The notes under the pieces were generated by a model. It ran no database searches. It was given only the letters and a program-made list of their open reading frames with translations, and was not told the DNA's origin. Position numbers and translations under genes: made by a program. This document shows positions 1,794 through 52,817 of a DNA stretch of 59,742 bases, piece after piece (the first letter of the stretch is position 1; each line of letters opens with the position of its first letter). Source of the DNA: a virus. The stretch is taken from IMG/VR virus record IMGVR_UViG_3300005593_000003, positions 1-59,742 of that record; one strand, given 5' to 3'.

Positions 1794-2039
1794 ATGGCAT
1801 ACAAGTTCAAAAGCGAGTGTCTCAAGCTTCAGGCAGAAAGCGTCATCATGGCAGCTTTTGAGGGCGACAACGAACACGCCATCATCGACACGGGCAGCAA
1901 CGGGTCGCCCTCCTATCACGTTGTCACCTTCAATCACGGGCGCGAGGGAATGTGCCTCAACGCAGAAGAGCACAGCAACATGCCTGATGCGATCAAAGCC
2001 CTCTCGGGGTTCATGGTGACTGAATACGCGGGAGTTTAA
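1794..2039 (+). CDS. Hypothetical protein (81 aa), left-arm gene 3
   Basis: Unknown family. The ATG is preceded by exactly AAAGGGATTACCC, the leader it shares with the genes at 2113 and 2711. The protein has a basic start (MAYKFKSE), an acidic patch (Glu-Gly-Asp-Asn-Glu-His), a Gly/Ser-rich turn near residue 35 and a hydrophobic C terminus that is not long enough to span a membrane. The frame is closed in by intergenic hairpins on the downstream side. It is likely one of a set of co-regulated small accessory proteins. Confidence 0.7.
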   Translation: MAYKFKSECLKLQAESVIMAAFEGDNEHAIIDTGSNGSPSYHVVTFNHGREGMCLNAEEHSNMPDAIKALSGFMVTEYAGV

Positions 2040-2071
2040 GGTGCCCTTCACCCTTTGACCCACCTAGTCTG

Positions 2072-2090
2072 CACCCCCACAACGGGGGTG
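2072..2090. other. Intergenic hairpin CACCCCC / GGGGGTG
   Basis: A 7-bp stem around a 5-nt ACAAC loop, closely matching the hairpin at 1065-1087 and likewise placed just before the purine-rich leader of the next gene. Confidence 0.55.
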
Positions 2091-2112
2091 TAGCAACTGA
2101 AAGGGATTACCC

Positions 2113-2460
2113 ATGCAATATGCAGTTATCACAGACGCACAGATCGACTTCCTTAAAGCGAACCCCGTGCCCAACGTCGATCAGTTTCACACACCCTACG
2201 CCTACGTCATCGAAAATCAGCGCGACGATTGCACCTTGAGCAAAGAGCAAGTCATCGAACTGACGCAGATGATGCACCTAATGCCCCATGTCGCCCTTGT
2301 TGACTACAGTGAGAAACAGGGGCGCGAAACCCGCTATGCTGCCTATTACGACGGGTCGCTGTCGTTCCTAGAGATCGGGGAAGAAGTCGATGGGCGCTGC
2401 ACTGTGACTGCCTTGAGCGACAGGGATCACGCCTATGTGCTCGGGTATTTCGGGCGATAA
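2113..2460 (+). CDS. Hypothetical protein (115 aa), left-arm gene 4
   Basis: Unknown family. The ATG follows the conserved leader AAAGGGATTACCC. The sequence looks like a small alpha/beta protein: a short helix (residues 8-15), a Tyr-rich strand near residue 30, a helix around the Met-Met-His-Leu-Met run near residue 58, then Tyr/Arg-rich strands ending YVLGYFGR. There is no membrane segment. It is followed at once by a strong intrinsic terminator, so it closes a transcription unit beginning upstream. Confidence 0.7.
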   Translation: MQYAVITDAQIDFLKANPVPNVDQFHTPYAYVIENQRDDCTLSKEQVIELTQMMHLMPHVALVDYSEKQGRETRYAAYYDGSLSFLEIGEEVDGRCTVTALSDRDHAYVLGYFGR

Positions 2461-2466
2461 ACCCCG

Positions 2467-2497
2467 AAAGCCCGCCCAAGAGAAAGGCGGGCTTTTT
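2467..2497 (+). terminator. Intrinsic terminator
   Basis: A 10-bp stem AAAGCCCGCC (2467-2476) pairs with GGCGGGCTTT (2486-2495) over a 9-nt loop and runs into TTTTT at 2493-2497. It starts 6 bp after the stop codon of the gene ending at 2460. Confidence 0.85.
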
Positions 2498-2513
2498 GCC
2501 TAGAAGGGGTCTT

Positions 2514-2640
2514 CCATGGCACGGCCATGGCAAAGCTACCATGGCGTTTGCCTAAACGCGGCCATGGCAGGTCCATGGAGATCAGGCCATGGTCTTCTCC
2601 TAAACGCGGCCATGGCGGGTCCATGGCGTTTCGGCCATGG
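2514..2640. repeat. Three 48-bp units each with three CCATGG sites
   Basis: CCATGG occurs nine times, at 2514, 2525, 2539, 2562, 2573, 2587, 2610, 2621 and 2635. The spacing repeats as 11, 14, 23, which defines three 48-bp units. The last two units begin with the same CCTAAACGCGGCCATGGC. The unit is 16 codons long, so in one frame it encodes three similar 16-residue peptides starting Met-Ala-(Arg/Gly)-Pro-Trp. It lies upstream of the gene at 2711. Confidence 0.85.
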
Positions 2641-2710
2641 CGCCCCGGGACTGTTGCGCTGCCTAACCCTGCGCGGGACATTGGGGCATCAACAGAGAAA
2701 GGGATTACCC

Positions 2711-3043
2711 ATGAAGATCGAACTGGAAGTATGTGACTGCTCGGGCGAAGCGATTGTTTGCAAGGTGACGCCCACAGACGCGCAGATCGAGAAGATCGAG
2801 AAGGCGATAAGCGAGAACCCCTCAAAGATGTTTGAATGGCAAGGCGAGCTGCCCAATGTCGCTGAGACGACTGTGGAGGGCGTTGACTGCATGTCATTCA
2901 TGGACGAGGGCATTCTGATCATGTCGATCGCTGGACCCTCGTATATGGACTGTCTGACGATCTGGGAGGACAAAGAGATGCAAGAGCGCGCAATCGCTGA
3001 GACATGGATGCTCTTTGTCCCGCATTTGAAGATCTTCCTCTAA
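2711..3043 (+). CDS. Hypothetical protein (110 aa), left-arm gene 5
   Basis: Unknown family. The ATG at 2711 has the exact leader AAAGGGATTACCC, which decides the start. The frame stays open upstream to 2516 through the CCATGG repeats, so an extended form of 175 residues cannot be excluded. The 110-residue protein is acidic with four Cys (two in the Cys-Asp-Cys motif at residues 8-10), a helical segment near residues 25-40 and a Met-rich centre. It is soluble by appearance. Confidence 0.7.
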   Translation: MKIELEVCDCSGEAIVCKVTPTDAQIEKIEKAISENPSKMFEWQGELPNVAETTVEGVDCMSFMDEGILIMSIAGPSYMDCLTIWEDKEMQERAIAETWMLFVPHLKIFL

Positions 3044-3283
3044 AGGGAAAGGCGAGCCCCGCGTCCATATTAGGGAAAGGCTAGCCCCGTGGCGGGCTCT
3101 AGGAAAGGCTGCGGGAAAGGCTAGCCCCGTGGCGAGGCTTAGGAAAGGCTCGGAGAAAGGCGAGCGCTTTGCCTAGGAACGGCGCGGAAAAGGAGAGGAA
3201 AGGCAGCAAAAAATGCCGCGGCAAGGCGCGGCAAAGCCCCTGCGGGGCTTGGAGGAGGCTAGGCGCCCCCTTGATCGACTGTC
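3044..3283. repeat. Cluster of GGGAAAGG / GCTAGCCCCG / GCCTAG repeats
   Basis: This gene-free stretch holds GGGAAAGG at 3045, 3073 and 3113 and a repeated AAAGGCTAGCCCCGTGGCG block (about 3077 and 3117), ending in GAAAGGCGAGCGCTTTGCCTAG. I see no coding frame with a plausible start. It is the densest patch of the left-arm dispersed repeat. Confidence 0.5.
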
Positions 3284-3310
3284 GCCCGAATGTCACAGTG
3301 ACATTCGGGC
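3284..3310. other. Perfect 27-bp palindrome
   Basis: Arms of 13 bp (GCCCGAATGTCAC and its complement) flank a single central A at 3297. It starts 10 bp beyond the stop of the small leftward gene at 3320-3445 and could be a hairpin ending that transcript or a dimer binding site. No T run is present on either strand. Confidence 0.7.
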
Positions 3311-3319
3311 AACAGGGCG

Positions 3320-3445
3320 TCAATATCGGGTAGTAACGCTAGTTTGCGATTCTAGCCCCAAAAGCGTTTTCTGCGCTGCATCTGCGAAGATTACTGCGAT
3401 TATGCTGCAAAGCAAAATAGCGATGAAACGGGTGATAGCTTGCAT
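3320..3445 (-). CDS. Possible 41-aa membrane or secreted peptide
   Basis: This short leftward frame starts 2 nt after the TAA of the gene at 3448-3657, with TTGGGGGC as a plausible ribosome site inside that gene's end. The peptide begins MQAITRFIAILLCSIIAVIF, which looks like a signal peptide or a single transmembrane helix with a short polar tail. Tight coupling to the upstream gene and the clear hydrophobic segment argue for a real gene. Its function is unknown. Confidence 0.5.
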   Translation of the reverse strand: MQAITRFIAILLCSIIAVIFADAAQKTLLGLESQTSVTTRY

Positions 3446-9649: not shown

Positions 9650-11140
9650 TTAAGCGGCGAGCTTGAAGCCAAGACCAAGGGCGTCGAACTCCTGACCCTT
9701 CTTGAGGATGTTTTCAGCGAAGCCCGGGGTTGCCTCGACAATGGCCCTGCGAGCGCGGGCGTGCTTCTTGAGGTACTTGTTGCCGATGTCGCTGTAGTCC
9801 ACGACGAAGCAGATGTTCGGAAGCCCACCTTTCTTTTCTCGCAGACCGCGCCCGATGCGCTGGCGCAATGCGACCTCAGCTTTCCCGCCCCCGGCAAGAA
9901 TCACCATCCCTACGGCCGGCACGTCCACACCCACATCGAGAATGGTCGAGCCGATCAGCACTGCGGTCTCGCCAGACTTTAGGCGATTGAGGGCGCGCTG
10001 ACGCTGGTCATTATCATGGGCGCCGTGAATGAACTCTGTGGCAAATCCTAATTTGCGGCAGTTGTCTCGTAGCGTAACTCCATGTGCCTTACGCTGCACC
10101 AAGATCATCACCGGCAGTCCGAGCTTTCGGGCGAACTCGACGCGAGACACAATATCGGCATTGCGCATGTCGTTCTTCACCACACCGATGTCATACGCTT
10201 TCTGCCAGCTGTAGAACTGCTTGAGGTCTTTGGGCGGCGGGACATCGCGATACTGGAAGATCGGACGTGCAAGGATGTTGCGCTCGATCAGCATCTTCTC
10301 GGGGATGCTAATGCCGATCTGACCCGAGACACCCATGAGCCGCATATTGGCCTCTGCATCCGCGCGCATGAACGGGGTCGCGGTCAGGGCAAGCCTGTAT
10401 CGCGCGTTCACCATCTCATTCATCACCTTGAAGTACGTCTCCGACCCCGCCTCATGCGCCTCCTCAAGAATGCAAAACTCGAACATATGCAGCAGCTTGG
10501 TGGTGGCGCCCATGGTTTCGGGGTTCGACAGCCGCGCATCGAGGGTTTGGATCATACCGACGTTCACCCCGCGGGTTGGACGCCATTCGCCGTCACCCAT
10601 AACGCCCACCTTGAAGCCGGCTTGCTCAAAGCCGTCCTTCATCTGGTACATCAGCACCTGACGTGTCGTGATAAACAGGGTAGGGCGCATGATGCGTTTC
10701 ACCGCGGTGCGTGCGATCATCGACTTGCCGCCACCGGTAGCGACCTGGGCGATCATAGCGCCGTACTTCTCAAGCCTGCGTACCGTCTCGGGCTGATAGT
10801 CATACCGAGGGTCGATGTCGAAGGGGTTCACAGCCGCGTAAGCCTCATCCAGGGGCGGGCCTAACGGGGCGGGTAGGGGCTTTCTGCGTACCGTGACCTG
10901 ATAACCCTCCTGACGCAGCTTATCGACCGCAGAGGCCAGAAAGCCCGCAGGGAAGATGCCTGTCGAAAACTCCAGAAAGCTTGTGCGCCCATCCCAGCCT
11001 TGGTTCTTACCCCGGCCTGTATGCTCGGCTCCGTCCACATAGTAGCTGAGCTGATCCGAGACGATTAGCTTCGCCTCGATGTCGGCTTCCATCATGCGGG
11101 CCTTCACCGCATTCGCAACTATGAGAACATGCTCAGACAT
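9650..11140 (-). CDS. Superfamily 2 DNA/RNA helicase (UvsW/SSL2-like)
   Basis: An ATP-dependent helicase, probably for recombination, fork repair or the replication switch, as known for T4 UvsW. Walker A is ATGGGKS (about residue 137). The Walker B box reads EEAH instead of DEAH. LTATPF gives motif III. A C-terminal helicase domain ends in QRIGRGLREKKGG, the arginine-finger motif VI. The N-terminal 100 residues include a UvsW-like small domain (Tyr-Tyr-Val-Asp-Gly-Ala-Glu-His). The size of 496 aa matches the family. It is the first gene of the leftward block and is transcribed from the operator-bearing region at 11176-11206. Confidence 0.85.
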   Translation of the reverse strand: MSEHVLIVANAVKARMMEADIEAKLIVSDQLSYYVDGAEHTGRGKNQGWDGRTSFLEFSTGIFPAGFLASAVDKLRQEGYQVTVRRKPLPAPLGPPLDEAYAAVNPFDIDPRYDYQPETVRRLEKYGAMIAQVATGGGKSMIARTAVKRIMRPTLFITTRQVLMYQMKDGFEQAGFKVGVMGDGEWRPTRGVNVGMIQTLDARLSNPETMGATTKLLHMFEFCILEEAHEAGSETYFKVMNEMVNARYRLALTATPFMRADAEANMRLMGVSGQIGISIPEKMLIERNILARPIFQYRDVPPPKDLKQFYSWQKAYDIGVVKNDMRNADIVSRVEFARKLGLPVMILVQRKAHGVTLRDNCRKLGFATEFIHGAHDNDQRQRALNRLKSGETAVLIGSTILDVGVDVPAVGMVILAGGGKAEVALRQRIGRGLREKKGGLPNICFVVDYSDIGNKYLKKHARARRAIVEATPGFAENILKKGQEFDALGLGFKLAA

Positions 11141-11227: not shown

Positions 11228-11884
11228 ATGAACCTCATCCATACAGATCCCCGCACATTAAGCCCAAATCCCTGGAACCCGAACCATGTCTCCCCGGAAG
11301 GTATGGAGCGTCTCACCGAAAGTCTTCGGCGCCACGGCTGGGTAAAGCCCGCGCTTGTGCGTGAGACAGACACGGGCCTTGAAATCCTCGGCGGTCAACA
11401 TCGCATCGAAGCCTCGATCGTCCTGGGCAATGAGACAGTCCCGGTTCTCAATCTCGGTCGCTTGAGTGACGAGCGCGCCAAGGAGATCGGTCTGATCGAC
11501 AACGCCCGTTACGGTAGCGATGACGCGGATGAACTGGCGGCCATCATCAAAGACCTTGGCGGCAGCGAGATCATCTCGGAGTTTCTACCCTTCTCTGATG
11601 CCGAACTGGCCTCCCTCGCGACCGACATTGATGTGGATGACATCGACGACATGATCGACGGCACCCACGACAGCACCGGTGAGCCGGAAGAGAAGCCCGA
11701 GCGGCCGCCCAAGACCCACACCATCATGCGCTTCAAGATCTCCATTCAAGACGAAGACCTGGTGCGGGAGCTGATCGAGGAGATCAAACGAGATCAGGAG
11801 TTCGTCGAGGAAGACGATCTCACCAATGCCGGGGATGCCCTGGTCTATCTTGCTCAACAAATGAAGGAAGCCGAACATGGCTAA
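11228..11884 (+). CDS. ParB-like N-terminal domain protein 1
   Basis: A ParB/Srx-fold protein. The first 90 residues match the ParB nuclease/CTPase-like domain: Leu-Ser-Pro-Asn-Pro-Trp-Asn-Pro-Asn, then GLEILGGQHRIEAS carrying the conserved Gly-Gly-x-His-Arg phosphate-binding motif. The middle is acidic (four Asp-Asp pairs near 130-145), and the C-terminal part is a charged helix. It lacks the usual ParB helix-turn-helix, so a partition role is unlikely. It overlaps the next ParB gene by 8 bp and leads a cassette with an ABC ATPase and a GNAT protein. In phages such ParB domains are often tied to DNA modification enzymes, which is the reading I favour. Confidence 0.8.
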   Translation: MNLIHTDPRTLSPNPWNPNHVSPEGMERLTESLRRHGWVKPALVRETDTGLEILGGQHRIEASIVLGNETVPVLNLGRLSDERAKEIGLIDNARYGSDDADELAAIIKDLGGSEIISEFLPFSDAELASLATDIDVDDIDDMIDGTHDSTGEPEEKPERPPKTHTIMRFKISIQDEDLVRELIEEIKRDQEFVEEDDLTNAGDALVYLAQQMKEAEHG

Positions 11885-12557
11885 AGAGATCGACATCAAC
11901 GACCTCTCCATTGAGGCAGTCGACATCGACTACCCCAAACCAGCGGAGAACAACAACAAGGTTCACACGCCCGCATCTGTCGCGCGTCAGGCTAAGTCCC
12001 TCGCGGCCCTCGGGCAGATCACCCCGATCATCCTGGCTGAAGACGGCGAGATCATCGCCGGACACGGTCGGGTCATGGCTGCCAAAGAGCTTGGCTGGAA
12101 GAAGATCAAGGCCATCACGCTGCCTGTTGACGCCGAGACGGCGCGCAAGATGCGCATTGCTGACAACCTCGCATCGAACCAAAACTACGACATCGACGCA
12201 CTGACCAACGAGCTGAAGGACTTGAACCTTCGCGACGAGCTGGAAAACTTCATCGGCGACGATCGGATGATCGACAATCTGGAAACCGCGCTCGACACGC
12301 TGGCGGAGATGGATCGCGACAGCTTCGTCAAAGACCTCGATGAAGCCGTGGATGTCTACGCCTCGGAATCCGACGGCTTGATGGATGAAATCGACCAGAA
12401 GGATGTGATGCTCAAGACTGTCTTTGAGTTCAATGGCCTCAAACCCAAGGAGGCGCGGCGGGTCAATCTGTTCATGGCGCTGATCAAGGGCAAGAGCGGC
12501 GCGGAGGCAAAAGAAGCCTTCCTTGAGCATGTGGAGAAGACCATTGCCGAAGGATGA
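11877..12557 (+). CDS. ParB-like N-terminal domain protein 2
   Basis: A second ParB/Srx-fold protein, distinct in sequence from the first. IIAGHGRVMAAKELG (about residues 58-72) is the Gly-His-Gly-Arg form of the motif seen in phage ParB proteins beside DNA methylases. The motif is followed by MRIADNLASNQNYD, also typical. The C-terminal 100 residues are acidic and helical with no recognised domain. The start overlaps the first ParB gene by 8 bp, so the pair is probably made in fixed ratio. Two adjacent unequal ParB domains suggest a heteromeric complex. The exact activity is unknown. Confidence 0.8.
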   Translation: MAKEIDINDLSIEAVDIDYPKPAENNNKVHTPASVARQAKSLAALGQITPIILAEDGEIIAGHGRVMAAKELGWKKIKAITLPVDAETARKMRIADNLASNQNYDIDALTNELKDLNLRDELENFIGDDRMIDNLETALDTLAEMDRDSFVKDLDEAVDVYASESDGLMDEIDQKDVMLKTVFEFNGLKPKEARRVNLFMALIKGKSGAEAKEAFLEHVEKTIAEG

Positions 12558-12909
12558 GAATAGCAATGTTCGGCCGCTGTTTGCCGACATTCGCACGCCC
12601 GAAGAGCTTTCAAGCGCCGCTGAGCTTTACGAAGAGCGCTGCAAGTCCAGTTCGATCCGCGACACGGTCGCTCAGTTTCAGAGCCAGATCGCAGAGGTCG
12701 GTGACGAAAACATCCATGGCGTGATCTGCATGGTCATCACCAAGGATCCGTCTCAGGGGACGTATTCTTTCACGCCATCATGCTACGAGACCGACATGGC
12801 CTATGCGATGACAGTCGCCACGCTCGCCATGCTGGAGCGCCTAATCCACGACGAAGCTGAGAACTTCCGCATCGAGGGTTTGGTCGAAGACTGCGAAGAC
12901 GATCTCTGA
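12529..12909 (+). CDS. Hypothetical protein (about 126 aa)
   Basis: Unknown family. The frame is open from a TTG at 12523. ATG 12529 is listed here, but TTG 12544 has the better ribosome site (GGAGAAGA), so the start is uncertain. The protein is acidic. It has a helical first half (Glu-Leu-Tyr-Glu-Glu-Arg-Cys-Lys), a hydrophobic strand-like segment (Val-Ile-Cys-Met-Val-Ile-Thr) near residue 68, and a helix near the C terminus ending Glu-Asp-Asp-Leu. It lies between the ParB pair and the ATPase and probably belongs to the same module. Confidence 0.6.
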   Translation: MWRRPLPKDENSNVRPLFADIRTPEELSSAAELYEERCKSSSIRDTVAQFQSQIAEVGDENIHGVICMVITKDPSQGTYSFTPSCYETDMAYAMTVATLAMLERLIHDEAENFRIEGLVEDCEDDL

Positions 12910-12946
12910 CGAGAGACGCCCGAAGACCCTTCTTATGGAGGGCTTC

Positions 12947-13612
12947 ATGTCCAACTCTACCCATCACGTCATCAACGTGAGCTTCCCCACACAGGTCAAA
13001 AAGACCGACCGCGTCATCGACGTGGCCGAAAGCTTCGGCATTGGTCTGGCTGACGGGCAATTCACCATCTTCAAGGACTTCGAGGTCGATCTTGAGCAAG
13101 GCGCTCGGGTCTACATCACCGGTCAGTCTGGCGCCGGCAAGTCGATCCTGCTGCGCGAGCTTGAGCGTCAACTGAGCGAGGCGGGCAAAAGTGTCGCCAA
13201 TATCGACAACGTGGAGCTCGATCCCGATCTGCCGCTGATCGACCAGCTCGGCAAATCCACCAACGAAGCCACGCGGCTGCTAACCACCGCGGGGATCACG
13301 GATGCCTATCTCTTCGTGCGCAAGCCCGGTGAGCTTTCTGACGGTCAGCGATACCGGGCTCGGCTGGCAAAGGTGCTTGAAGCCGATGCTGATGTTTGGG
13401 TCGCTGACGAGTTTGGCGCTGTTCTTGACCGTGTTGTCGCAAAAGCCGTGGCTTACGGGATCGCTAAGAACGCGGTGCGTTTGGGTAAGACCCTGATCGT
13501 CGCGACCACACACCTCGATCTGAAAGAAGAGATCGGGCCGACGCTTTTCGTCAACAAGCGCTACCACGACCGCATCGAGGTTGAGCAGAACGACGTGGAG
13601 CCGAGCGCATGA
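12947..13612 (+). CDS. ABC-type ATPase (soluble), COG2401-like half
   Basis: A stand-alone ABC ATPase without membrane partners. Walker A is GQSGAGKS at residues 59-66, the signature is LSDGQRYRARLA (about residue 130), Walker B is VWVADEF, and a switch His is in ATTHLD. The start at 12947 is chosen because GGAGGG sits just before it; an ATG at 12935 overlaps that site. The known arrangement of an ABC ATPase joined to an acetyltransferase-like domain (COG2401) is echoed here as two separate genes, this one and the GNAT protein at 13793. I infer that it powers or positions the GNAT enzyme on DNA. It is not a transporter. Confidence 0.8.
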   Translation: MSNSTHHVINVSFPTQVKKTDRVIDVAESFGIGLADGQFTIFKDFEVDLEQGARVYITGQSGAGKSILLRELERQLSEAGKSVANIDNVELDPDLPLIDQLGKSTNEATRLLTTAGITDAYLFVRKPGELSDGQRYRARLAKVLEADADVWVADEFGAVLDRVVAKAVAYGIAKNAVRLGKTLIVATTHLDLKEEIGPTLFVNKRYHDRIEVEQNDVEPSA

Positions 13613-13800
13613 TCCCGTCCATTTCGACGCTGCTGAACTTAGCGCTACCCCCTTATGCCCATCACAAGCTTTGGCTTGCCCTAGATCGCGCTGTGAACGG
13701 GGCTGCAAGCGCTGTGAAGCGCCCTTGCAAGGGCACCCCCATGAACGCCCGAAAACGCGCTCAGAAGCGCGCCCAGCAAGGGAGTGACAAGAATGCCTGA
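13609..13800 (+). CDS. Possible small basic protein (63 aa)
   Basis: The frame starts with ATGA overlapping the ATPase stop by 4 bp and ends 8 bp inside the GNAT gene, so coupled translation would be natural. The N-terminal half is hydrophobic and the C-terminal half is strongly basic (Asn-Ala-Arg-Lys-Arg-Ala-Gln-Lys-Arg), which would suit DNA binding. The DNA here is rich in short repeats (GCGCTGTGAAGCGC, GCCCTTGCAAGGGC), so a non-coding role is also possible. No family is recognised. Confidence 0.4.
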   Translation: MIPSISTLLNLALPPYAHHKLWLALDRAVNGAASAVKRPCKGTPMNARKRAQKRAQQGSDKNA

Positions 13801-14656
13801 AGACTTTGCCACCGAGATCGTCTGCGACCCGCAGGCCAAACCTGCATTCCCGCTGTTGTCGGAGATGTACGTCGAGCGCGGCACGCAGGAAGATTGGAAC
13901 CTGCTGCACCATCTGCACTACAAGTCCGACCACAACCCTATCGGCGCGCGCTACTATCGCCTTGTGTTGGACGGTGAGACAATCGGCGTCTGCGGGATCA
14001 CCCAGCCCCGGCCCTTGGGCAAGGAGCGTCATCAGATTTGGAAGAAGCTCACGCCGGGGAATGACACCAAGGCCTCGAACCGCTTTCGGTACAAGTGGGT
14101 CAACAAGAACATCGTGGTGATCGGCCGCATTGTGCTGGACACGATGTACCGCGGCGTGGGCGCCTCGTATCGCTTTCAGAACATTGTTGCCCGCAAGTCT
14201 GGCATGCCGATTGTCGAGATCATGTCCTCGATGTCGAAGTACAATCCCTTCGCGCAGAAGGCGGGGTTTGAGTTCGTGCGCCCCATGCGGTCGAACAAGT
14301 TCGATGTCGGCATGAAGTTCTTCCGGGCCAACTTCGATGCGCACCCCGCCGATCTCGATGGACTGCTCAAAGAGATCGACGCAATGCCTGAGGCCGCCCG
14401 GGGCTTGATGGTCGATCGTATCAAGACGTTCTACTACCGCCACTCCGCCAACGAGAAGACGGGTGACGCCCGCGACATCGGGCAGGAGCGGGTGCGTAAC
14501 ATGAGCACGAGCCTTGTCTTGCGTCAGTTGCAGCAGCTGGTGCTCTCAACGCCGCTTTACGGGGTCTACATGAACCCGGACTTCGGGCGCGATCTTCCCG
14601 ATCAAATCCCACTCACCGCTTTTGATGCTCAACCGACGACGGAGCCGCTGAAATGA
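13793..14656 (+). CDS. GNAT-fold transferase, possibly Mom-like
   Basis: A predicted GNAT-superfamily enzyme (287 aa). The acyl-CoA-binding motif A region is RIVLDTMYRGVGASYRFQN (about residues 112-130, with Arg-Gly-Val-Gly-Ala). SSMSKYNPFAQKAGFE follows, the beta-bulge and helix near the C-terminal edge of the fold. A His-His-Leu-His-Tyr cluster at 39-43 could sit at the active site. ATG 13793 is preferred over GTG 13784 because AAGGGAG precedes it well. Mu Mom, a DNA-adenine modifier, has the GNAT fold, and the ParB and ATPase neighbours support a DNA target. Substrate and donor remain unknown. An ordinary acetyltransferase is the main alternative. Confidence 0.7.
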   Translation: MPEDFATEIVCDPQAKPAFPLLSEMYVERGTQEDWNLLHHLHYKSDHNPIGARYYRLVLDGETIGVCGITQPRPLGKERHQIWKKLTPGNDTKASNRFRYKWVNKNIVVIGRIVLDTMYRGVGASYRFQNIVARKSGMPIVEIMSSMSKYNPFAQKAGFEFVRPMRSNKFDVGMKFFRANFDAHPADLDGLLKEIDAMPEAARGLMVDRIKTFYYRHSANEKTGDARDIGQERVRNMSTSLVLRQLQQLVLSTPLYGVYMNPDFGRDLPDQIPLTAFDAQPTTEPLK

Positions 14657-14973
14657 TGACCTATGAGAAAGACCCATATCGTCTGACCAAGAAGCAGATG
14701 CATGTGCTTTCTGTAATCGCCCGAGGCGGGGATGATGGTGACTTCCTCGACCTCGATCAGCTCTTGGAGAAGATCAACTATGAGACGACCAAAGCCTCGA
14801 TGCACTTCACGCTCCGAGGCCTGCTGCGTCGGGGTATGATCGAGAAGAAGGGCCAGGAGCTGCGCCGAGGGCGTCAGCGCTTGGTGTTGGCCCCGACAGT
14901 GAAAGGGCAGGGCATGGTGCGCACCGACAGCTCCGGTGGCGGGGTTGTGATGGAGGGATTCGACGAGGTCTAG
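14653..14973 (+). CDS. Winged-helix DNA-binding protein (106 aa)
   Basis: A predicted winged helix-turn-helix protein of the MarR-like type. Helices at about residues 11-20 and 32-42 precede a likely recognition helix, Thr-Lys-Ala-Ser-Met-His-Phe-Thr-Leu-Arg-Gly-Leu-Leu (about 46-58). The wing is Gly-Gln-Glu-Leu-Arg-Arg-Gly-Arg-Gln-Arg. The ATG overlaps the stop of the GNAT gene (ATGATGA), so it is in the same operon. It lies next to the inverted-repeat control region upstream of the terminase genes and is the only clear free-standing DNA-binding regulator in the window, which makes it the prime candidate for binding the dispersed palindrome or the repeat at 15011. That link is inference. Confidence 0.7.
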   Translation: MMTYEKDPYRLTKKQMHVLSVIARGGDDGDFLDLDQLLEKINYETTKASMHFTLRGLLRRGMIEKKGQELRRGRQRLVLAPTVKGQGMVRTDSSGGGVVMEGFDEV

Positions 14974-15346: not shown

Positions 15347-15961
15347 ATGGCAGGCGAGAAATCTGAACCCCACCATCGGAAGATGACGCCCTTGGATTAC
15401 GCCAAGGCGCGGCGCTTGTATGAAATGGGCACGGCGACCCTCGCGGAGCTTGCCGAGCAGTTCGGGGTTCACCCCTCGTCGCTGCACGAACGCTTCAAGC
15501 GCGACGGTGTGGTCAAGGGCTCTCGGGTGTCCGAGGCGCTTGAGAAGATGGACGAGGTCATCGCCAACGACGCTGAACAGCTGATGAAGCGCGTCACGGA
15601 CACCAAAGAACAACACTACCGCTACGCCGAGGCGCTCTCGAAGATGACCATGCAGGCCATTATTGACACGCGCCAGAAGGGCAAACCCATCGCCGCCGCG
15701 GATGGTGATCTCGCTGCGCTCAACAAGGCCGCCAAGACGCTCGAAGTGCTGCGCAAGGAGCGCTACAAGCTTTTGGGCCTCGATGACGATGGCGGCGATC
15801 CCAACGAGAATGAAGAAATCCTGATCTCCGAAATGACGGATGAGCAGATCGACGAACTGCGCCAAGCCGCCAACCCGAATGTCGATAACTCCGAGGGCAT
15901 CGAGACCCTCTTGGAGGACATCGACATCGTTGATGAGGGGCTGGAGGGCCTTGAGCAGTGA
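15347..15961 (+). CDS. Terminase small subunit
   Basis: The DNA-recognition subunit of the packaging motor. A helix-turn-helix is visible at about residues 20-52 (Ala-Thr-Leu-Ala-Glu-Leu-Ala-Glu-Gln-Phe-Gly-Val-His-Pro-Ser-Ser-Leu). A central helical oligomerisation region and a very acidic C terminus (Asp-Asp-Gly-Gly-Asp-Pro-Asn-Glu-Asn-Glu-Glu) that probably touches the large subunit follow. The length is 204 aa. Its stop overlaps the GTG start of the large subunit by 4 bp. The 15011-15145 repeats just upstream are a natural candidate for its binding site. Confidence 0.85.
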   Translation: MAGEKSEPHHRKMTPLDYAKARRLYEMGTATLAELAEQFGVHPSSLHERFKRDGVVKGSRVSEALEKMDEVIANDAEQLMKRVTDTKEQHYRYAEALSKMTMQAIIDTRQKGKPIAAADGDLAALNKAAKTLEVLRKERYKLLGLDDDGGDPNENEEILISEMTDEQIDELRQAANPNVDNSEGIETLLEDIDIVDEGLEGLEQ

Positions 15962-17238
15962 AGCCGCCCGTCAACATGATGCGCGGGCCGAAGGGCGGCA
16001 AGCCGCGATGGCTGTACCTGCACCCCGCGCAGATGAAGGTGTTCAAGCACCCGACGCGCTTTAAGGTCGTCGTCGCAGGCCGTCGATGGGGTAAGACCCA
16101 GCTGTCAAAAGTCTGGATGATCCACAAGGCAGCCTCGAAGCGCAAGGCGTTGATCTGGTACATCGCGCCGACCTATCAGATGGCGCGTCAGATTATGTGG
16201 GACGACCTCAAAGAGGCGATCCCGCGAAAGATGCTCAAGGTGCCGCCCAACGAGACCTTGATGATGCTCCGCTTCAAGAACGGGTCGATCATCCAGCTCA
16301 AGGGTGCCGACAAGCCCGACACGCTGCGCGGTGTGGGCCTTGATGGCGTGGTTCTCGACGAATTTCAGGACATGCGCGAGGAGACCTGGGATACGGTCAT
16401 TCAGCCCACACTTGCCTCGACAGGCGGTGAGGCGCTGTTTATCGGCACGCCGAAGTCTTACAACCACCTCTATGATCTGTTCATGGACGGTCAGAGCGCC
16501 AAGCATGAAGATTGGCAGTCCTGGCAGTTCCAGACCATCACGTCTCCGTTCATCCCGCCCGCAGAGATCGAGCGTGCGCGGCGCACGATGAACGAAAAGG
16601 AGTTCCGGCAGGAGTTTGAAGCTTCCTTCGAGACGATGTCGAACCGCGTCTACCACGCCTTCGACCGCAACGTGCATGTGGGCCGGGTCAAAATGGACCC
16701 GCGCTACGACATTATGGTTGGGATGGACTTCAACGTGGACCCGATGTCCGCGATCTTCTTTCAGATCCGAGACGGCTCGGTGCGCGTTTTCGGCGAGCGC
16801 ATTCTCAGCAACTCTTCGACGCAAGAGATGTCCGGGGAGCTTGATCGTCTGTTCTGGCGCCAGAAGCACCGCGTGATCATCTACCCTGACCCTGCCGGCA
16901 CGCAGCGATCCTCGGCCGCCTCCAGCGGTGAGAGTGACTTTGCCATGCTCAAGCAGATGGGTTTCAAGCGTCTCAAGTATCGCCGCAAGCACCCGCGCAT
17001 CCGTGACCGTATCAACGCGGTCAATCGCATGCTCATGGCAGGTGACGGCACGTCTCGGGTTCTGATCGACCACACCTGCAAGAGTTTGATCGAGAGCTTT
17101 GAGCAGACGCAGTTCAAGCCGGGATCATCCGAAGTCGACAAGCGCCCCGGTATCGAACACGCGACGGACGCTTTCGGCTATCCCATCGAGATCGAGTTCC
17201 CGGTACGCGACATTCATATCCTGGGGGTTTCCTTCTGA
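15958..17238 (+). CDS. Terminase large subunit (ATPase and nuclease)
   Basis: The motor that cuts and pumps phage DNA into the head. The start is GTG at 15958. Walker A is GRRWGKT (about residues 42-48), Walker B with the catalytic Glu is VVLDEFQDM (about 138-146), and FIGTPKS is the coupling motif. The C-terminal RNase H-like nuclease shows acidic residues in VGMDFNVDP, IIYPDPAGT and HATDAFGYP. The length of 426 aa is typical. The gene is followed by a new promoter, so packaging and portal are separately controllable. Confidence 0.95.
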   Translation: MKPPVNMMRGPKGGKPRWLYLHPAQMKVFKHPTRFKVVVAGRRWGKTQLSKVWMIHKAASKRKALIWYIAPTYQMARQIMWDDLKEAIPRKMLKVPPNETLMMLRFKNGSIIQLKGADKPDTLRGVGLDGVVLDEFQDMREETWDTVIQPTLASTGGEALFIGTPKSYNHLYDLFMDGQSAKHEDWQSWQFQTITSPFIPPAEIERARRTMNEKEFRQEFEASFETMSNRVYHAFDRNVHVGRVKMDPRYDIMVGMDFNVDPMSAIFFQIRDGSVRVFGERILSNSSTQEMSGELDRLFWRQKHRVIIYPDPAGTQRSSAASSGESDFAMLKQMGFKRLKYRRKHPRIRDRINAVNRMLMAGDGTSRVLIDHTCKSLIESFEQTQFKPGSSEVDKRPGIEHATDAFGYPIEIEFPVRDIHILGVSF

Positions 17239-50084: not shown

Positions 50085-52817
50085 ATGACAGAAGAAACAG
50101 TGGAAGAGTTCGAAGCAGAGGCGACATTCGACTTCGACGAAGCATTCCAGCTCAAGGTGGCGGCTCTCTGCACGCGGGACGTAATGTTCAATGTGCGCAC
50201 GAGTGGCCTGATCGAGCCAGGCTATTTCGAGAACGCAGCACATGGCACGATCGTGGGTCTGGTGAGCAATCACTATGACACCTACAAGACCGTGCCCTCG
50301 ACAGTGGTGCTTGCGAAGCTGATCAAAGATGCGGTCGCATCGAAGATCATTCGCGAAGATATGCTGCCGGATGTCAAAACGGAGCTGGGCAAGATCCTCC
50401 GGGCTGATCTTAGCGATCGGGACTATGTGGTTGATCAAGTCGCAACCTTCGCCCGACATCAGGCGATCTACAACGCGATGATCAAGTCCAGCAGCTATCT
50501 GGAGAAGAATGACTTCGACCAGATTGAAGCTCAGATGGGCAAGGCGATCATGGTGGGCGCCAATGACGCAAGCGAAGCCCACGACCTTTTTCTCGACATT
50601 GAAGCCCGGGCGGAGATGCGTAAAGAGATTGCGGCGGGCACACGCAAGCGGGCCGTGACATCAGGCTATCGAGAGTTTGACGATGCCACAGCTGACGGCG
50701 GCTTCACCCGCGGCGAACTGTCAGTCCTCATGGGCCCGGCGAAAATGGGCAAATGCGTAACAGGCGACACGCTGATCATCACCGAAGACGGGATGGTGCG
50801 TATCGACGACTATCTGCCCCCTGACATGCCAACAGGCGCAATGGATGCGATCGACATCGGCATTCTGGGAAAAGACGGCGCTGAACGTGCAAGCCACATC
50901 TACAACAGCGGTGTGCGAAAGACCCGCCGGATCAGAACCCGTCGCGGCTATGAGATTGAAGGCAGTCTCAATCACCCCATGATGGTTATGACCAAAAACG
51001 GTCTCGATTGGGTCAATCTCGAAGATGTTCGCAAAGGCGATGCGATGGCTGTCCAGCGCGGGGAATTGCGTTTTGGACATCACGTTGATCTGATCCCGGC
51101 GCGCAATGCCACGTTCGATTGGATCGAATTCAGCCCAAGGCGGGGAACGCACAATCTGATCAAACTTCCCGTTGCGATGACGCCCGATTTAGCGGAGCTT
51201 CTGGGCATGATTGTTGCCGAGGGGCATGTTGCCATAAAGGACGCACTTGTCACCTTTACGCAGAAGGACGAAAGCATTCTGCGGCGATACTGCGAACTCA
51301 TGCACCGACACTTTGGGCTTGAGCCGACGGTCAGCAAGGGGGATCGGGCCTTTGAGGCGCGTGTCTATAACCGCATGCTGCAAGTCTTCCTCGACAAGCT
51401 CGGACTGCCCGCGACACTCTCTGCCCAGAAGGAAATCCCAAAGAGCATCAGGCGCGCTCCCTATGGCGTTGTGAAGCGCTTTCTGGAGACTGTCATGGGT
51501 CTGGAAGGGTCTGTCGTCACAGCCCCGTCAGGCAAGCTCTCATATCATCTGACGATGGCATCGAAGGAGCTGATGCGACAGGTGCATCTGCAACTGCTCA
51601 ACTTCGGCATTGTCTGCAAGATGCGGCTCAAGCCCGGGTGTGCAACAAACGGCACAGGTATCATGCGGGAATACTGGCACATCGAAGTGGCAGGGCAACA
51701 CAATCTGCAACTGCTTGCGGAGATTGGGCTCTATGAGCCGCGCAAGACGAAAGCTCTGAAGGAAGGGCTGACGGGTATTGACGCAACAGCACAAGACCGC
51801 ATCCCCAATGCCGCTGCAAAAGTCACCAAGATCATGCAGGAGATGATGGCGGCCGGCATTAAGCTGAAACGTGATGTGCCACCGACGCTCTGCAAACAGC
51901 TCTATGCCGTGAAATCTGGAAGACGGCACCTGAGCTATGTCATCGCCGATCAGCTGTCTGAGTTCATCGGGGATAGGGTGATGGGCGAGGGAGTCACATG
52001 GCTGCGCGATACATTGCGACAGGGCTATGCCTATGACGAGATCGTGGAGATTGTCGAGGGCGAGGCGCAGACGATGGATATCTCTGTACCTGAGACCAAC
52101 AGCTTTTGGGCAAATGGCCTGATCAGTCACAACTCCTTCGGGCTATTGAATTTCGCGGTGAATGCGATCAAGGCGCGTTTCAACGTGCTGTTTATCTCGC
52201 TCGAAAACAGCGTCGAGGTGACGACCAATCGGGCAGAGGCGTATCTGTCAGGCATCCCAACCCGCGATCTGAATGATCACATCGACGAAGTGGCACAGAA
52301 GGTGCGCGCGGCTCTTGAGGGGCGCGGGACAATGAAGGTGCATCGCTTTGCGACCAACTCATTCTCCCCGCGTGACCTCAAGCGATTGATCGAGCGCTAC
52401 CGCGCGCAGGGCATGCTCTTCGATATGGTCGTGATCGACTATTGGGACATTATGAAGCCGCCCATCCGCTACAAGGATGACAAGATCTCCGAAAGCCGCG
52501 AGATCGGCGTCGAGCTGCGTCAGATCGCGATGGAAGAGGACATCGCAATGCTCACAGCGGTGCAGACGAACCGCGAGGGGTACAAGGCCAAGACTGCGAA
52601 AGCTGATCACGTCGCCGAAGACTTCAACAAGGTGCGTCTCGCTGACTTCCTGTTCTCAATCAACGCGACAGATCAAGAAAAGGCCGACAAGGTTGCACGG
52701 CTCTATTTCGCTGCCGTGCGTAACGCAGAGGGCGGCTACGAGCGCACGGTGCATCAAGACTTGGCGCGCGCCACCTTCATCAAGAAGTTTGAGCCAAAGG
52801 GGTCTTACGGTGAGTGA
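50085..52817 (+). CDS. Replicative DNA helicase (DnaB-like) with intein
   Basis: The precursor has 910 residues; removal of the intein (residues 224-683) leaves a helicase of about 450 aa. Walker A GPAKMGK-S is split by the intein between Lys and Ser, and the C-extein starts SFGLLNFAV. Walker B is VVIDYWD (about residue 785 of the precursor). An Arg-rich segment and a Glu-Ile-Gly-Val-Glu-Leu-Arg-Gln-Ile-Ala motif follow, typical of DnaB. It would unwind DNA at the phage fork with the primase encoded next. AAAGGCGAG precedes the start. It overlaps the primase gene by 8 bp. Confidence 0.9.
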   Translation: MTEETVEEFEAEATFDFDEAFQLKVAALCTRDVMFNVRTSGLIEPGYFENAAHGTIVGLVSNHYDTYKTVPSTVVLAKLIKDAVASKIIREDMLPDVKTELGKILRADLSDRDYVVDQVATFARHQAIYNAMIKSSSYLEKNDFDQIEAQMGKAIMVGANDASEAHDLFLDIEARAEMRKEIAAGTRKRAVTSGYREFDDATADGGFTRGELSVLMGPAKMGKCVTGDTLIITEDGMVRIDDYLPPDMPTGAMDAIDIGILGKDGAERASHIYNSGVRKTRRIRTRRGYEIEGSLNHPMMVMTKNGLDWVNLEDVRKGDAMAVQRGELRFGHHVDLIPARNATFDWIEFSPRRGTHNLIKLPVAMTPDLAELLGMIVAEGHVAIKDALVTFTQKDESILRRYCELMHRHFGLEPTVSKGDRAFEARVYNRMLQVFLDKLGLPATLSAQKEIPKSIRRAPYGVVKRFLETVMGLEGSVVTAPSGKLSYHLTMASKELMRQVHLQLLNFGIVCKMRLKPGCATNGTGIMREYWHIEVAGQHNLQLLAEIGLYEPRKTKALKEGLTGIDATAQDRIPNAAAKVTKIMQEMMAAGIKLKRDVPPTLCKQLYAVKSGRRHLSYVIADQLSEFIGDRVMGEGVTWLRDTLRQGYAYDEIVEIVEGEAQTMDISVPETNSFWANGLISHNSFGLLNFAVNAIKARFNVLFISLENSVEVTTNRAEAYLSGIPTRDLNDHIDEVAQKVRAALEGRGTMKVHRFATNSFSPRDLKRLIERYRAQGMLFDMVVIDYWDIMKPPIRYKDDKISESREIGVELRQIAMEEDIAMLTAVQTNREGYKAKTAKADHVAEDFNKVRLADFLFSINATDQEKADKVARLYFAAVRNAEGGYERTVHQDLARATFIKKFEPKGSYGE
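50754..52133 (+). mobile_element. Intein with LAGLIDADG homing endonuclease inside DnaB
   Basis: A 460-residue class 1 intein. It begins Cys-Val-Thr-Gly-Asp-Thr-Leu (block A) and ends with Ile-Ser-His-Asn before Ser, the standard catalytic ends. Block B is about Gly-Ser-Leu-Asn-His-Pro-Met. Two dodecapeptides resemble LAGLIDADG (LAELLGMIVAEG at about residue 368 and FLETVMGLEG near 466) and keep the acidic residue, so the nuclease may be active. It sits inside the P-loop, a favoured intein site in DnaB and other ATPases. Confidence 0.9.

Follow-up and report, generated by a model that had tools for sequence, protein, structure and literature searches.

Paired ParB-like proteins and a split ABC-ATPase/GNAT pair form a conserved phage cassette that is probably a DNA-modification system

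The association of a GNAT protein with an ABC ATPase was predicted by Iyer et al. 2013 (NAR 41:7635) to acyl-modify a DNA base, as reported in PMC7824862 (ref. 136), which also names phage pT24 as a carrier of the predicted ABC-GNAT modification system. This kind of system is already known as a prediction and is not new here; no experiment on ABC-GNAT modification was found in the literature searched. In the COG2401-type representatives, the two halves are fused in one polypeptide. We have analysed a cassette in the IMG/VR virus record IMGVR_UViG_3300005593_000003 (positions 1 to 59,742, a stretch referred to below as the window) which has homologous ABC and GNAT halves and, like the COG2401-type systems, a ParB gene upstream; however, the halves are encoded by two genes and accompanied by two ParBs and, as a rule, by an acidic protein, the ParBs are without the tail found in the fused systems, and the GNAT displays an insertion and a C-terminal extension of ~110 aa. 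Based on genes, structure models and genomic context, we consider it likely that this cassette is a phage DNA-modification system, in a split version of the COG2401-type ABC-ATPase/GNAT kind. As far as the literature searched extends, the split form, the paired ParBs and the enzyme-specific ParB tails are new; no description was found there of these features, of the acidic protein or of the core status of the cassette in SSU5/nickie-type phages, Iyer et al. 2013 being represented by its account in PMC7824862. Part of the context evidence (ParB or com linkage) may already be contained in Iyer 2013 or in the 2020 Mom paper.

Other described systems resemble the cassette in part. Dnd (DndB, DndD) and Dpd (DpdA, DpdB) also associate a ParB-superfamily protein with a DNA-modifying enzyme, and Dnd includes an ABC ATPase, whereas the cassette is without PP-loop DndC, cysteine desulfurase and transglycosylase and its enzyme is a GNAT; no DndC-type PP-loop enzyme or transglycosylase was present among the domain matches of the cassette proteins. 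TmcA and NAT10 couple an ATPase to a GNAT that acts on a nucleobase, and the GNAT structures match, but their ATPase is helicase-like rather than of the ABC type, their substrate is RNA and they have no ParB. Phage Mu Mom (PF25680, 8bv8) shares with the window GNAT the fold and an HY motif near the N-terminus, but works without an ABC ATPase and has RNSESR where the split GNAT has a canonical coenzyme A (CoA) loop. The genes of the cassette are the following:

11228..11884, plus strand: ParB1, ParB/Srx N-domain with motifs GG.HR and DNaRyG.DD; paralogue of ParB2, present in all relatives
11877..12557, plus strand: ParB2, ParB/Srx N-domain with motif iIaGHGR..Aa
12529..12909, plus strand: small acidic protein (alternative starts 12523 or 12544), a recurrent fifth component
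12947..13612, plus strand: soluble ABC ATPase (PF00005) with intact catalytic motifs, without a membrane domain
13609..13800, plus strand: 63-aa open reading frame (ORF) in the ATPase-GNAT gap, unlikely to be a conserved part
13793..14656, plus strand: GNAT-fold acyltransferase-like protein (profile comparison and structure model)
14653..14973, plus strand: winged helix-turn-helix (winged-HTH) protein, final gene of the unit (phrog_900, 2e-20; weak MarR_2)

An earlier note, made from the letters of this DNA alone, had taken the ATPase and the GNAT for the COG2401 arrangement split in two, and profile comparison bears this out. The ATPase (PF00005, 50.4 bits) aligns with the ABC half of fused ABC-GNAT proteins (hhalign E 8e-31), matches phage pT24 by tblastn (29.7%, 2e-13) and has intact Walker A (GQSGAGKS), signature (LSDGQ), Walker B with catalytic Glu (ADEF) and H-loop (TTH) motifs, all of which are conserved across 58 sequences. 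No membrane permease partner is found among the cassette proteins, and the NCBIfam transporter scores shown for the ATPase all fall far under cutoff, placing it outside the ABC transporters. In Tenacibaculum phage pT24 itself (L021 4842-6014), the ABC-GNAT region is annotated as two ORFs and is apparently broken or truncated within the GNAT part. The window GNAT (phrog_886, E 7e-106) has no match among the Pfam profiles, and a sequence search of solved structures returned no GNAT relative; it aligns with the GNAT half of the fused proteins (hhalign probability 93.7, E 1.9e-7; reversed and shuffled controls <=2), examples of which match Pfam GNAT (PF00583, 21.9 bits versus a cutoff of 20.7). 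Its structure model is confident (predicted local distance difference test, pLDDT, 90.7) and, in Foldseek searches, matches phage Mu Mom (PDB 8bv8, E 4.9e-5, prob 1.00), viral Mom and the fused LE4 protein, with NAT10/TmcA among the best structural matches. Residues H42 and Y43 are invariant in an alignment of 55 split GNATs, and a His-Tyr following the first helix is invariant or nearly so in split and fused GNATs alike; Mom proteins have one too. The CoA-loop motif reads YRGVGASYR in the window and relatives show the canonical RxxGxG/A; the C-terminal extension is conserved. The modelled structure thus upholds the GNAT assignment, and settles the fold but not the substrate.

Genomic context lends good support to the DNA-modification reading, because fused ABC-GNAT genes trade slots with Mom and TET-linked enzymes and sit behind Com. 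In five lineages of the window's phage type (L124, L140, L160, L207, L216), a fused ABC-GNAT gene replaces the ATPase and GNAT genes between ParB2 and the winged-HTH gene, while ParB1, ParB2, the winged-HTH gene and the terminase are retained. These genes were considered as fission intermediates, and this was rejected since the ABC-domain tree nests them within the fused family (100/98); they are therefore replacements, and the split and fused forms are interchangeable. A second group of smaller phages, related by their large terminase subunit (TerL), displays other enzymes between the ParB gene and the genes for the small terminase subunit (TerS) and TerL: ABC-GNAT in L247, Mom in L262 (PF25680, 160.6 bits), a TET-associated glycosyltransferase (TAGT) in L253 and L258, Tet_JBP plus a further gene in L254, an FkbM methyltransferase in L244, and a ParB-methylase fusion with an AdoMet decarboxylase in L228. 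The ParB next to ABC-GNAT shares 76% identity with the one next to Mom; for TerS the figure is 66%. Across these swaps, the DNA on either side of the enzyme aligns at 70-77%. At the DNA level, L427 (ABC-GNAT) and L354 (Mom) are 77% identical over 2,985 nt from the TerS start and 73% over the N-terminal half of ParB, and nothing aligns across the enzyme; L427 and L253 (TAGT) are 76% and 74% identical on the two sides, with a break at the enzyme. The fused enzyme is swapped like a cartridge between ParB and terminase. As a separate observation, the L228 locus (1831-3429) encodes a ParB-fused N4/N6 DNA methylase, then the AdoMet decarboxylase, adjoining the terminase, and is a candidate for a modification derived from decarboxylated S-adenosylmethionine.

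In phage Mu, translation of mom is activated by Com. Of 80 bacterial loci, 7 have a Com homologue (PF10122, 40-64 bits; Mu Com scores 36.8) just ahead of the fused gene, and Mu-type baseplate genes lie upstream in all three Com-linked loci examined; in these Mu-like prophages, the fused ABC-GNAT occupies the place of mom behind com. No Com regulator was found by family matches among the cassette proteins themselves. Several Mu-like loci have a formyltransferase gene after the fused gene (by Pfam in two, by motif in eleven). For instance, com, a free ParB-tail ORF, fused ABC-GNAT and Formyl_trans_N stand in a row in L290 (5500-7600), L332 (5560-7583), L330 (5450-7480) and similar loci, which suggests a two-enzyme modification pathway.

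The two unequal ParB/Srx-fold proteins recognised from the sequence both match ParB_N (PF02195) and phrog families: ParB1 scores 39 bits, above cutoff (phrog_723, E 1e-51), and ParB2 26.2 bits, just below the cutoff of 26.3 (phrog_930, E 4e-37). They are full-length paralogues (hhalign 99%, E 3.6e-18), and both ParB1 motifs are conserved among relatives. The single ParBs that precede fused ABC-GNAT score on average 70 bits against the ParB2 profile and 41.5 against that of ParB1; judged by these profiles, ParB2 is the closer of the two to the single ParB of the fused systems. That ParB-like domains accompany phage DNA-modification genes, another point of the earlier note, agrees with the position of a ParB gene directly upstream of fused ABC-GNAT in 59/60 loci and ahead of Mom in 29/29 testable loci. 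The ParBs found with fused ABC-GNAT end in a common tail of ~40 residues, a profile of which matches 68/68 of them and 0/33 Mom-linked ParBs; the Mom-linked ParBs listed carry another tail, with a CPHC motif. The ParBs preceding Mom in L348, L355, L358 and L371 end in LDPKWIDCPHCGKEFDMR, a zinc-knuckle-like tail. In Mu-like loci the ABC-GNAT tail is a free ORF of ~50 aa just 5' of the enzyme gene (11/11 examined), and in swapped loci the ParB tail changes along with the enzyme. In the simplest reading, the ParB body would dock on DNA and the tail would pick the enzyme.

What follows on substrate, chemistry, target base, the part played by each ParB and the gain for the phage is our inference from these observations. 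ParB1 and ParB2 would bind phage DNA and recruit the enzyme; the ABC ATPase, in a role modelled on the ATPase half of the RNA cytidine acetyltransferases TmcA and NAT10, would spend ATP to open or position the DNA, licensing the reaction; the GNAT would then transfer an acyl group from acyl-CoA to a base, probably at an exocyclic amine. Modification would take place late, next to packaging, and would shield the packaged DNA from host nucleases. As a tentative extension, phage ParB-like proteins could constitute a general plug-in platform for DNA modification, in which an exchangeable short C-terminal tail selects ABC-GNAT, Mom or other enzymes; the SSU5/nickie-type cassette would possibly be a divergent branch, with two ParBs sharing this role and a split ABC-GNAT making an undescribed acylated base in a widespread phage-plasmid group.

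Several observations weigh against reading the cassette in this way. The Mom swaps and the Com linkage were seen with fused ABC-GNAT; what connects the split form to it is homology and the replacement of one by the other in the same slot. The ABC-GNAT tail profile matches no ParB1 or ParB2 protein. Phage eta combines a ParB with unmodified DNA (PMC3918226), and so a ParB next to phage genes alone is no proof of modification. None of the cassette proteins matches the Mom profile PF25680 at E up to 1, and hhalign of the GNAT against 34 Mom sequences gives a probability of 2.5; membership of the Mom family by sequence was rejected on these grounds (no profile match, hhalign probability <3%). The structural matches of the GNAT model do not go beyond the fold (TM 0.25-0.36 by query length); acetyltransferases of dopamine, polyamines and proteins are among them, and GNATs other than Mom score as well as Mom does. 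The structural match was therefore rejected as proof of a Mom-like enzyme, and it makes no case for an adenine target, because dopamine N-acetyltransferase and NAT10 match as well. In the structure comparison with Mom and COG2401 members proposed in the earlier note, the GNAT model matches Mu Mom and fused LE4, in the case of Mom without a sequence relation and alongside small-molecule acetyltransferases. Its broader suggestion that the set is a base-modifying system drew support from every contextual test (same-slot fused form, Mom/TET swaps, Com linkage).

Gene order was scored in 60 non-redundant metagenomic relatives, at loci with enough flank; these loci come from best-80 lists thinned at 90% identity and are not a sample of all diversity. 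The ATPase gene lies upstream of the GNAT gene in 57/57 loci, ParB2 in 50/50 and ParB1 in 49/49, and the winged-HTH gene is present in 59/60; the neighbourhood that had been proposed as a check is near-invariant, far beyond what chance would give. The flanks are likewise kept, the divergent helicase in 44/44 loci, and TerS and TerL downstream in 58/58 and 52/52:

9650..11140, minus strand: flanking UvsW/DEAD-box-type helicase, divergent; context, outside the cassette
15347..17238, plus strand: flanking TerS-like and TerL genes (phrog_867, TerL search), starting at 15347 and 15958 downstream of the winged-HTH gene; context

The invariable adjacency of TerS and TerL in this phage type, together with the general action of ParB-like and ABC proteins in chromosome organisation, speaks for the alternative that survives best, a DNA-packaging or segregation complex. 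In it, the concatemer would be prepared for terminase by the ParBs together with an SMC-like ABC ATPase, and the target acetylated by the GNAT would be a packaging protein. We regard it as unlikely, since the swaps with Mom, TAGT or Tet_JBP affect only the fused ABC-GNAT and leave ParB and terminase in place, and since in Mu-like prophages the fused gene comes after com, at the distal end of the late region, where no terminase adjoins it.

The cassette is also a core module of this SSU5/nickie-type phage group: when relatives were picked by TerL, a selection independent of the cassette (>=56% identity, sufficient upstream DNA), all of them had it. The GNAT was found in 30 phage records and in 905/72,556 plasmid records (39-55% identity among the matches listed), the latter mainly from Klebsiella, Escherichia, Acinetobacter, Enterobacter and Salmonella. 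Annotated records show the opposite-strand helicase (named UvsW or DEAD/DEAH helicase in relatives), ParB1, ParB2, ATPase, GNAT and winged-HTH genes, then TerS, TerL, portal and capsid genes where the record continues. The cassettes of SSU5, nickie and RHEph10 are like that of the window in gene order and flanks (GNAT 40-49% and ATPase 50-58% identical) and differ in their naming (ABC transporter, ParB partition protein) and in small gap-filling genes; none of the records examined for them is annotated as a modification system. The sole stray case met outside a full cassette is Sagittula stellata plasmid unnamed4 (L019 7974-9157), where, from the cassette, only the GNAT and winged-HTH genes are annotated, beside sugar-biosynthesis genes, and are likely a remnant of a cassette-type element. 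This core status, rather than that of a patchy extra, argues against a modification-plus-attack system directed at competing phages or host DNA, with ParB as a nuclease on unmodified DNA. Some ParB/Srx proteins do nick DNA or bind ATP (PMC10853773, PMC12839542) and jumbo-phage Mom domains are often nuclease-fused (PMC7824862), but the cassette proteins contain no recognised nuclease domain, and we consider such a system quite improbable.

A protein acetyltransferase for host takeover, aimed at RNA polymerase or the ribosome and regulated by the ATPase and ParBs, appears very improbable: phage GNATs such as phiKMV Rac do acetylate host proteins (PMC7824862) and protein and small-molecule GNATs are among the fold matches, but it fits poorly with a site among the late packaging genes, with ParB and ABC proteins as obligate partners and with the exchange of the fused form for DNA-base enzymes. 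We give hardly any credence to a plasmid partition (ParABS) system of phage-plasmids, although phages of the SSU5 type are phage-plasmids (PMC12977533) and 'partition protein' is a frequent annotation of the ParBs; the same cassette occurs in nickie and Rhizobium phages, two ParBs and a GNAT are a poor fit, no ParA is found in the unit, and ParB1 and ParB2 score 40.1 and 32.2 bits against the partition-ParB model TIGR00180, below its cutoff of 58.45. An RNA (tRNA or rRNA) acetylation system resembling TmcA/NAT10 is just as hard to credit, since the ParB partners and the exchange of the fused form with DNA-base enzymes favour DNA, even with NAT10 and TmcA among the best structural matches and coupling an ATPase to a GNAT as well.

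The genes of the cassette overlap by 4-29 nt, with the exception of a 37-nt gap 5' of the ATPase gene, whose start at 12947 is supported by a GGAGG ribosome site. The winged-HTH gene is joined to the GNAT gene by an ATGA overlap, and the unit extends past 14656, taking in this gene to 14973; promoter and terminator scans gave nothing above background level. Of the five or six overlapping genes originally proposed as one unit, the five main proteins on the plus strand stand and the sixth ORF is doubtful. The 63-aa ORF has a homologue in just one other locus, may not be a gene, and was rejected as a cassette component because it is not conserved; in relatives the same gap is filled by unrelated small genes (DUF2829 and others). 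A thioredoxin-family gene lies between ATPase and GNAT in an Acinetobacter phage-plasmid (L020 5492-5914). The acidic protein, likewise noted at the outset, has homologues by iterated profile in the ParB2-ATPase gap of 32 loci and in RHEph10, RHph_X66 and SSU5_128, and these sequence matches indicate a real yet variable component. Its model is poor (pLDDT 72.8) and mostly helical; the idea that it is a detached ParB tail was rejected for want of similarity. Elsewhere in the window, portal, capsid, tape-measure and tail-fibre genes match phage families, and a DnaB-type replicative helicase gene (50085-52817) is split by an intein that includes a LAGLIDADG endonuclease domain (PF14890, PF14528). 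The 59,742-base window is probably a fragment of a larger genome, because the genomes of relatives are ~100-120 kb.

If the DNA-modification reading is true, a class of phages and phage-plasmids carries an overlooked DNA modification, which has gone unseen because its genes are labelled as ABC transporter and partition protein; this would bear on how these phages and phage-plasmids resist restriction. Many phage DNA-modifying enzymes come with ParB domains whose function has been called unknown (PMC12783734), and our analysis offers a testable role for these domains, that of an adaptor whose tail matches the enzyme. Since the E. coli K-12 phage PhiR41_1 carries the cassette, the question is open to standard tools.

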